64,000 nucleotides of DNA from Ilumatobacter coccineus YM16-304 (GTDB taxonomy: Bacteria > Actinomycetota > Acidimicrobiia > Acidimicrobiales > Ilumatobacteraceae): contig NC_020520.1 of NCBI RefSeq assembly GCF_000348785.1, positions 186,001 through 250,000 on the forward strand. The letters run 5' to 3'. Both the position numbers and the translations under genes were made by a program. The notes below the pieces were generated by a model. It was not told the DNA's origin. It saw nothing but the letters and a program-made list of their open reading frames with translations, and ran no database searches. Shown here piece after piece: positions 26,017 through 27,923 of the stretch (position 1 is its first letter; every line of letters starts with the position of its first letter).

Positions 26017-26233
26017 TCGGGCGCGCGGCGGATCGACTTGAGCCCAAATTGATTCTTGGGAATCGGGAGCCCTCTGAGCTGGGGCTAAACATTTTCGGCA
26101 AAGTTTTTTCGGAAAACCGTTCAAGGTTCTCAGCGCCTGGACCGAAACATTCAGTGCGCTACGGGAGATGTTCTCACGGAGCCATCTACAACAACTCCAA
26201 TTGAGATTCATCAGCGGAAGGAAACGCAGAATC

Positions 26234-26623
26234 ATGAACAAGAACCAGGACAAGGGATTCACCCTCGTCGAACTCCTCATCGTCATCGTCATCCTCGGCA
26301 TCCTCGCCACGGTCACCGTGTTCGCAGTTCGCGGCATCACCGACCAGGGCCAGGAGAACGCTTGCGCAGTCGAGCGTCGCACCCTCGATACGGCCATCGA
26401 GTCGTACTACGCTCAGAACCAGAGCGACCCGGCCACGCTCGGCACCAACGCCGCTCCCGGCGATCTGGTCCCGGACTTCCTGAAGACCGACGTCAACACG
26501 GCGAACTGGACCTTCGTGAGCACGGCTGGTCCCGACGGCATCGCCGGCAACGGCGACGATCTCGACACCGCTGTGTTCCTCGCCGTCACCGCTGCCAACG
26601 ACGGAGCTTGCGAAGGCGCCTGA
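26234..26623 (+). CDS. Type IV pilin-like protein
   Basis: A 129-residue prepilin. A short charged leader MNKNQDKG is cut before FTLVELLIVIVILGILATV, the classical N-methylated pilin helix with Glu at position 5. A small globular domain follows, with two Cys (ENACAVERR and the C-terminal DGACEGA) that can form a pilin disulfide loop. The start is well supported by GGAAGGAAA upstream. A strong terminator follows, then a second pilin gene. Such proteins form pili or pseudopili, or act in DNA uptake in Gram-positive bacteria. The assembly genes (pilB/C/M/N) are not in the window. Confidence 0.9.
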   Translation: MNKNQDKGFTLVELLIVIVILGILATVTVFAVRGITDQGQENACAVERRTLDTAIESYYAQNQSDPATLGTNAAPGDLVPDFLKTDVNTANWTFVSTAGPDGIAGNGDDLDTAVFLAVTAANDGACEGA

Positions 26624-26732: not shown

Positions 26733-27161
26733 ATGCTTCTTCAACATTTCCTCAAGAGACCGGCGAGATCTGCCGATCAATTGCGCATGAACGAGTACGA
26801 CGCTATCGAGGTGACACCCGCCGTGAAGCGGGCACCATTCGACCGAGGCTTCTCCTTGGTCGAGATGCTGATCGTGATCGTCGTGCTCGGCATCCTCGCC
26901 ACGGTCGCGGTGTTCGCCGTGCGCGGTACGACCAGCAACGCCGAGTCCCAGGCGTGCCAGTCCGAACTCAAGAGCCTCAACACGATGGTCGAAGCGCACT
27001 TCGTGCGCACCGGTGAGCGCACGATTGCGCCGACCGGCGTGACCGACGATCGGTTCGAGATCACCTTGGTCGACGCGCAGATCATGCGCTCGGTGTCGGC
27101 GAACTACCACATCGATGCCGATGGTGAGGTCACGCCCGTGGCGGGAACGATCTGCGACTGA
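26733..27161 (+). CDS. Type IV pilin-like protein with long leader
   Basis: A 142-residue prepilin. The cleavage site is G before FSLVEMLIVIVVLGILATVAVF, again with Glu at position 5. The leader is long (about 43 residues from the ATG at 26733, which has AAAGGA upstream; about 25 from the ATG at 26787). The mature protein has a short globular part with paired Cys (ESQACQSE and the terminal TICD). It is the likely paralogue of pilin 1; the helix and the AVRGxT segment are nearly identical. Separate termination suggests different expression levels, for example major and minor pilin. Confidence 0.85.
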   Translation: MLLQHFLKRPARSADQLRMNEYDAIEVTPAVKRAPFDRGFSLVEMLIVIVVLGILATVAVFAVRGTTSNAESQACQSELKSLNTMVEAHFVRTGERTIAPTGVTDDRFEITLVDAQIMRSVSANYHIDADGEVTPVAGTICD

Positions 27162-27233: not shown

Positions 27234-27923
27234 TCAGCCGGCTCGAGATTCGGCGGCGAGCTGCAGGACGTCGTCCTCGGGGAACGGGCCGATCCAGCCG
27301 GTGATCGGCGTGCCGTCGGCTGCCAGCAGCACTGCTGACGGCTGCGACTGGATGCCGATCTCGATCCACGTCTCGAACGATTCGTCCCACAACATGGTGA
27401 ACGAATCGGTGCCGTAGTCGTCGACGAAGGCATGGGCATCGTCGAGGTTGTCCTGTGTGCCGAGGCCCACAACGATCAGTTCGTCTTCATGATCTCGAGC
27501 AAACTGCTCGACGCCGGGAGCTTCCCGGCGGCAGATCGATCAATGCGGCGCCCACATCCACAACAAGACGGGCTTGTCCTGCGGGACGAGGTTGCGGAAG
27601 TTGACCTTGCGATCGTTGGTGAGGTCGTCGACGACCACGCTCGGGAGCTGGTTGGTGTCGATCTCCGCCGACGGGAGCACCTCGGCTCCGACCAGGTCGA
27701 CGAACCCGGCCCCGACGGCCGTGGCCGCCACGTCGGCGGGTACCTCGGTGCCAGTATCGGTCTGGGTGTCGGGTGATGCTTCAGGCAACGCCTCGTCGGT
27801 CGACGCGTCGTCCCCACCGCACGCGGCGAACAGCATCGTGCCGGCCAGGGCGCCCGCCATGACTCGGCGTCGCGCTCGACTGACTGATCGAGATGGGTGC
27901 GTACTCCGCATGTGCGCCATCAT
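27234..27923 (-). CDS. TlpA/thioredoxin-like lipoprotein with in-frame TGA (candidate selenoprotein)
   Basis: Read through TGA at 27542-27540, the frame encodes 229 residues. A signal ends in LFAACGG (lipobox), followed by an Asp/Thr-rich spacer and a thioredoxin fold. The active site reads LLWMWAPH-U128-S-I-C131-RREAPGVEQFA. The family motif is W-A-P-x-C-x-x-C, and TGA is exactly its first, nucleophilic cysteine. Sequence beyond the TGA is a complete thioredoxin fold (ELIVVGLGTQDNL, the cis-Pro in SQPSAVLL) ending in TGA at 27234. A stable hairpin starts 9 nt after the TGA. A UxxC thiol oxidoreductase outside the membrane is the likely product. The exact ATG (27923, 27920 or 27911) is uncertain. 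Confidence 0.82.
27512..27530 (-). promoter_or_regulatory. Candidate bacterial SECIS hairpin after the TlpA-like TGA
   Basis: CGCCGGG-AAGCT-CCCGGCG forms a perfect 7-bp GC stem with its apical loop 16 nt after the TGA. An outer CTGC/GCAG pairing (27534-27531 with 27507-27504) can extend it. If the top G-C pair opens, the loop begins with G, as is usual in bacterial SECIS elements. Placement closely matches that in the AhpD-like gene. Confidence 0.55.

Follow-up and report, generated by a model that had tools for sequence, protein, structure and literature searches.

A UGA codon almost certainly read as selenocysteine in a secreted thioredoxin-like protein of Ilumatobacter coccineus, followed by two tandem hairpins

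Results

The window, by which we mean the whole stretch of 64,000 nucleotides of Ilumatobacter coccineus YM16-304 analysed here (contig NC_020520.1, positions 186,001 to 250,000), carries on its minus strand a reading frame (27923-27234) whose single in-frame TGA ahead of the terminator lies at 27542-27540, where translation table 11 reads a stop. Several ATG codons are candidate starts; counted from the first of these the gene comprises 229 codons, with the in-frame TGA as residue 128. The terminator (27236-27234) is also TGA, so that UGA appears to have two meanings, selenocysteine (Sec) and stop, inside this one gene, and its position places the gene end well beyond the range 27512-27923 given in an earlier, sequence-only reading of this DNA. 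What that reading described within the frame is nonetheless present and in the order it gave: a lipoprotein-like signal (MLFAACGG) is followed by WMWAPH, the TGA, SICRREAPGVEQFA and the remaining thioredoxin domain with SQPSAV, and the TGA occupies the first position of a UxxC motif at which relatives carry cysteine. The active-site motif is W-A-P-H-U-S-I-C, and its second cysteine codon (TGC, 27533-27531, minus strand) falls in an invariant alignment column (C64). On the same strand a lipobox-like LFAAC was assigned by eye at 27833-27819 (Cys codon 27821-27819), and SQPSAV (27347-27330) forms the presumed cis-Pro loop, its near-invariant Q127 and P128 preceding the following strand in the alignment and the structure model. 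With the TGA read as a residue, the product matches two Pfam families, AhpC-TSA at 34 bits against a cut-off of 26 and Thioredoxin at 27.4 bits against 23.5.

Two hairpins follow the TGA on the minus strand. The earlier reading had already noted hairpin 1 (27530-27512), giving it 7 bp and a loop 16 nt past the TGA, both of which are exact; the seven pairs are perfect, and counting the next A-T pair gives an 8-bp stem with a 3-nt loop (AGC). Hairpin 2 (27511-27495), overlooked in that reading, lies directly 3' of hairpin 1 and has a 6-bp stem (UCGAGC/GCUCGA) and the loop AGUUU (27505-27501). Among the 1574 TGA trinucleotides on both strands of the G+C-rich window, 123 are followed by a stem of at least 6 bp and 37 by a perfect stem of at least 7 bp within 50 nt, which makes one such hairpin no rarity; two disjoint perfect stems of at least 6 bp follow only two, namely the Sec site and its own reverse complement. 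An outer stem (UGAUC/GAUCA) present in the window's fold was rejected as it is lost in most relatives, judged by eye, and an Rfam search over 27300-27700 returned five matches at E<=10, none of them close to its gathering score.

To place the codon among relatives, 77 loci were read and the active site was aligned in 75, two loci on one contig (L087 and L091) failing alignment. The aligned codon is TGA in 55 distinct sequences, which come from many genera, and TGC or TGT in 16, a share that is uninformative on the frequency of Cys forms because most Cys rows were fetched for lacking a stop. Among named organisms, the closest relatives come from Ilumatobacter nonamiensis, with 62% identity in its best-matching segment, and from an Ilumatobacter MAG (58%). 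The window protein and its I. nonamiensis counterpart are 76% identical in the 45 residues before the TGA and 78% identical in the 95 residues after it, and in the latter part dN (0.14) is well below dS (0.60). Outside the window, the same genome holds a paralogue (L069, G000:C1:162138-162656) with 49% identity, the TGA, UxxC and tandem hairpins alike. Three contigs from other genomes (G318:C2, G382:C30 and G250:C7) each carry an adjacent pair of TGA-containing homologues, which suggests tandem duplication of the selenoprotein gene.

The genome itself (4.83 Mb, one contig) contains tRNA-Sec (66.5 bits, anticodon tca by ARAGORN), SelA (413 bits) adjoining SelB (275 bits), and SelD (369 bits) with an in-frame TGA of its own, that is, all four components of the machinery needed for a bacterial selenoprotein. 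Across the class (Acidimicrobiia), matches at E<=1e-8 occur in 187 of 395 genomes; the co-occurrence set was restricted to the 64 genomes with a best match of at least 68 bits (tallied by eye), 57 with a TGA-containing match and seven with stop-free matches only. A strong Sec marker (tRNA-Sec or SelA) is present in 57/57 of the former versus 1/7 of the latter (Fisher p 9e-8), a contrast that lacks phylogenetic independence, as a single family accounts for six of the seven Cys-only genomes. For tRNA-Sec at E<=1e-10 the corresponding counts are 50/57 and 1/7 (Fisher p 1.4e-4), weaker matches near 1e-8 being attributed to other tRNAs whose variable arm is long; SelA is present in all seven TGA genomes without tRNA-Sec at this threshold and was not found in six of the seven Cys-only genomes, whilst one Cys-only genome (G083) has the full Sec machinery. 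The position of the TGA was read in fetched sequences only, and in several other TGA genomes the pattern scan described below found TGA and then the motif. One of the 57 genomes (G039), the source of the two loci that failed alignment, has an extra in-frame TAG in its best match, and its active site is unaligned.

Conservation of the two hairpins differs between the Sec and the Cys forms. Hairpin 2 pairs in 94.8% of alignment cells in the 55 Sec forms versus 31.3% in the 16 Cys forms, and within the Sec forms three of its six pairs show two-sided changes, the second pair going from C-G to U-A in seven sequences. Its loop is AGUUC, AGUUU or AGUUG in 52/55 Sec forms, with GU at positions 39-40 in 53/55, and the Ala codon in its stem is GCT in 51/55, GCT being the rarest Ala codon in pooled genes. 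Measured against synonymous-codon shuffles, hairpin 2 has a mean z of -2.91 in the Sec forms (p<=0.05 in 46/55) and lies near zero in the Cys forms (p<=0.05 in 1/16); a hairpin after the TGA is thus kept in Sec forms and lost in Cys forms. Individual exceptions occur, in that hairpin 2 alone is not significant in I. nonamiensis (L062, p 0.09) and is absent from two Sec forms, one an own-genome paralogue (L070) and one from another genome (L100). Hairpin 1 gives a mean z of -2.20 in the Sec forms (p<=0.05 in 37/55) and near zero in the Cys forms (0/16). Its stem is usually kept, but its register and letters are not: 59.3% of cells pair in the window's register, and sliding by -2 raises the two-sided changes to 42, versus 26 in that register. 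RNAalifold on the family alignment recovered hairpin 2 alone and did not call hairpin 1. On these grounds hairpin 2 is better supported than hairpin 1 as the selenocysteine insertion element (SECIS) and is likely the SelB site.

A pattern scan for TGA-N(24-34)-GAGCAGTTYGCTC found matches in 70 of the 395 genomes of the class, versus about 10 of 395 for a reversed control pattern (tallied by eye). Among the 90 pattern matches listed, the spacing is exactly 30 nt in 59 and any other spacing occurs at most seven times; at least one of these 59 (in G233) apparently involves no family member. In the I. coccineus genome the motif occurs only at the window gene and at the paralogue (162386-162431).

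A structure model based on an alignment of 47 family members, comprising Sec and Cys forms and including the window protein, has a mean pLDDT of 90 and a pTM of 0.86, and places the Sec position directly ahead of the first active-site helix. The modelled fold is of the TlpA/ResA/DsbE thioredoxin type, with the active-site residue opening the first helix after a strand. By sequence, the best solved chains are Mycobacterium tuberculosis DsbF (3ios, E 1.3e-13) and Mpt53/DsbE (1lu4, E 5.5e-12); DsbF is also the best structural match of the model, Mpt53 is likewise among the closest, and ResA and CcmG types come next. Identity of the window protein to DsbF and Mpt53 in the fold alignment is 27-28%, and both have cysteine where the window protein would have Sec. 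Among the NCBIfam models listed, the window protein exceeds the cut-off of none: it scores 50.3 bits against DsbE TIGR00385 (curated cut-off 123.15) and, with its motif HUSIC, 24.4 bits against NF041054 (cut-off 300). By fold and nearest relatives, the gene product would be an extracytoplasmic thiol-disulfide oxidoreductase. In one relative (L031:1453-2388, genome G379) the Sec-thioredoxin domain and an FKBP-type prolyl isomerase domain (78.5 bits) are joined in one reading frame, and this fusion points to a possible part in the extracytoplasmic folding of secreted proteins.

A tandem layout is also found in selD. The I. coccineus gene (G000:C1:2441028-2441951) is a likely selenoprotein gene (GAGUGCKL) with two tandem hairpins after its TGA. 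From 71 SelD loci of the class, four without the site and two others (duplicate or too short) were set aside, leaving 44 distinct Sec and 21 distinct Cys forms for comparison. The second hairpin is significant in 42/44 Sec versus 1/21 Cys forms, and the first stretch in 18/44 versus 1/21. Across the alignment of the 44 Sec forms, 97.2% of the cells in the two stems are paired; two-sided changes occur at two pairs of stem 1, in which four of the six pairs are uninformative because they never vary, and at three pairs of stem 2; positions 37-38 are GU in 44/44. Among 47 SelD loci from outside the class, a motif search gave no site in 29 and a site in 18 (17 called Sec, 1 Cys), three of the 18 appearing spurious (L202, L221, L235), and the second hairpin is significant in 13 of the 17 called Sec. 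The I. coccineus genome also contains four thioredoxin-fold or AhpC-like frames with a TGA (L057, L058, L059 and L070, with the motifs YUGC, HULPC, WUGC and TUSIC, respectively), in which tandem hairpins were not found; since these four selenoprotein-like genes are without it, the tandem layout is not universal.

Discussion

The UGA at 27542-27540 of this secreted thioredoxin-like protein is, on sequence evidence, almost certainly read as selenocysteine. The earlier proposal of a selenoprotein gains support from the Sec machinery, from relatives with TGA or Cys at the aligned codon and from the intact downstream part; selA, selB, selD and tRNA-Sec, which it had proposed looking for, were all found, homologues carry TGA or Cys where it suggested aligning them, and the downstream decay that would have counted against it is not seen in the comparison with I. 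nonamiensis. Its choice of SECIS fared less well: a recoding hairpin does exist, but the one chosen, hairpin 1, is less conserved than hairpin 2. We consider it very probable that the gene encodes a lipoprotein oxidoreductase with a Sec nucleophile, inserted through SelB acting at hairpin 2. During translation, SelB carrying Sec-tRNA-Sec would bind hairpin 2 (27511-27495, loop AGUUY) and Sec would be inserted at UGA 27542-27540; hairpin 1 (27530-27512), situated between codon and SECIS, is likewise maintained by selection and probably cuts the effective distance or prevents other structures from forming. The product would be secreted and anchored to lipid, a thiol-disulfide oxidoreductase of the extracytoplasmic thioredoxin/Dsb type, and the mature protein would then reduce, oxidise or isomerise disulfides outside the cytoplasm. 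Sec in the product, SelB binding and the role of hairpin 1 are what we infer, from the observed frame, codon exchange, machinery, fold model and hairpin conservation.

The alternatives concern both the codon and the signal. Were the TGA a true stop, the locus would encode a 127-residue lipoprotein followed by a remnant; equally, TGA could be a sequencing error for TGC or TGT, and one genome taken alone, in which table 11 reads a stop, could look so. A sequencing error is unlikely, however, to recur in 55 distinct sequences from many genera, and the downstream part is undecayed, the hairpins are retained in TGA forms only and the genome possesses Sec machinery; conserved TGA and conserved downstream part together speak strongly against an error or a pseudogene, and we attach almost no credence to a stop or an error. 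It is nearly as hard to accept that both hairpins are by-products of codon usage and conserved amino acids, with Sec inserted independently of a SECIS or through a different signal. The stretch CRREAPGVEQFAR is indeed conserved as protein, and hairpins are frequent after TGA in the G+C-rich window (123/1574 with at least 6 bp), but shuffles that preserve the protein yield weaker structures, hairpin 2 covaries, and the stem Ala codon is held at GCT in spite of its rarity.

A selenoprotein in which hairpin 1 is the SelB-binding SECIS and hairpin 2 an accessory deserves somewhat more weight, although we still consider it unlikely. The loop of hairpin 1 lies 16-17 nt past the UGA, and this hairpin is stable and above synonymous expectation in 37/55 Sec forms. 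Against this, its loop and register vary, whereas the loop of hairpin 2 is near-invariant and obeys the G-then-G/U rule of the consensus, as given in PMC13188914, and RNAalifold calls hairpin 2 alone; given the variable register and the RNAalifold result, hairpin 1 as sole SECIS is not favoured. With hairpin 2 as the predicted SelB site, the two gene families suggest a further reading to which we give even odds: that the class uses a bipartite SECIS in two unrelated genes (the thioredoxin-like family and selD), in which a spacer hairpin after the Sec-UGA is followed by a SelB-binding hairpin with loop G-U near +37 to +40. By folding, the spacer hairpin would take about 19 nt out of the path, giving a loop distance that resembles that of single-hairpin elements.

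UxxC thioredoxin-like selenoproteins are established (PMC2398784, PMC13188914), and the window protein is a further member of them. In the GOS survey of marine metagenomic reads, Trx-like 1 (COG0526) has Sec first in UxxC (PMC2398784); as described there, it shares with the window protein a thioredoxin-like character, Sec as the first active-site residue, the UxxC motif and many Cys homologues. In this comparison, which covers UxxC and the thioredoxin fold, the window protein differs in representing a lipoprotein subfamily of one actinobacterial class with WAPHUxxC. A UGC-containing TlpA family is among the selenoproteins listed in PMC13188914; this family and the ResA-like WAxxUGC selenoprotein (NF041054) are like the window protein of ResA/TlpA type with a thioredoxin fold, but have the motif UGC where the window protein has UxxC. 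The consensus that Zhang and Gladyshev gave for the bacterial SECIS, as quoted in PMC13188914, calls for a loop of 3-9 nt, a stem of 4-16 bp, a G at loop position 1 or 2, a distance of 16-37 nt from the UGA and MFE <= -7.5. Hairpin 2 fits the consensus in this form, with a 5-nt loop having G then U, a 6-bp stem, 34 nt from the UGA and -9.2 kcal/mol for its own stretch; the consensus as quoted comprises one stem-loop, whereas here a second conserved hairpin lies between UGA and SECIS. The tandem-hairpin recoding element is thus possibly a new variant of the bacterial signal. None of the literature titles among the matches listed, in a coverage that leaves out most subscription papers, deals with this selenoprotein family or a tandem element.

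The standard code stops at UGA, so a class-wide family of secreted selenoproteins can be missed or shortened in annotation. Dozens of naturally occurring variants of a single fold, some with Sec and others with Cys, make the family suitable for asking what maintains Sec in proteins outside the cytoplasm. Should the tandem element prove real, one-hairpin models would account for the bacterial signal only in part, and the SelB of this group would be a good system for studying what determines the spacing from the UGA.

With regard to genomic context, no cluster of more than nine loci was seen among the neighbours in flanking stretches of roughly 1 to 3 kb, clusters of the gene's own frame or overlapping it excepted (judged by eye). 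In the window, two genes on the plus strand (26168-26623 and 26733-27161) encode pilin-like proteins that carry N-terminal methylation motifs, and both are convergent with the selenoprotein gene.
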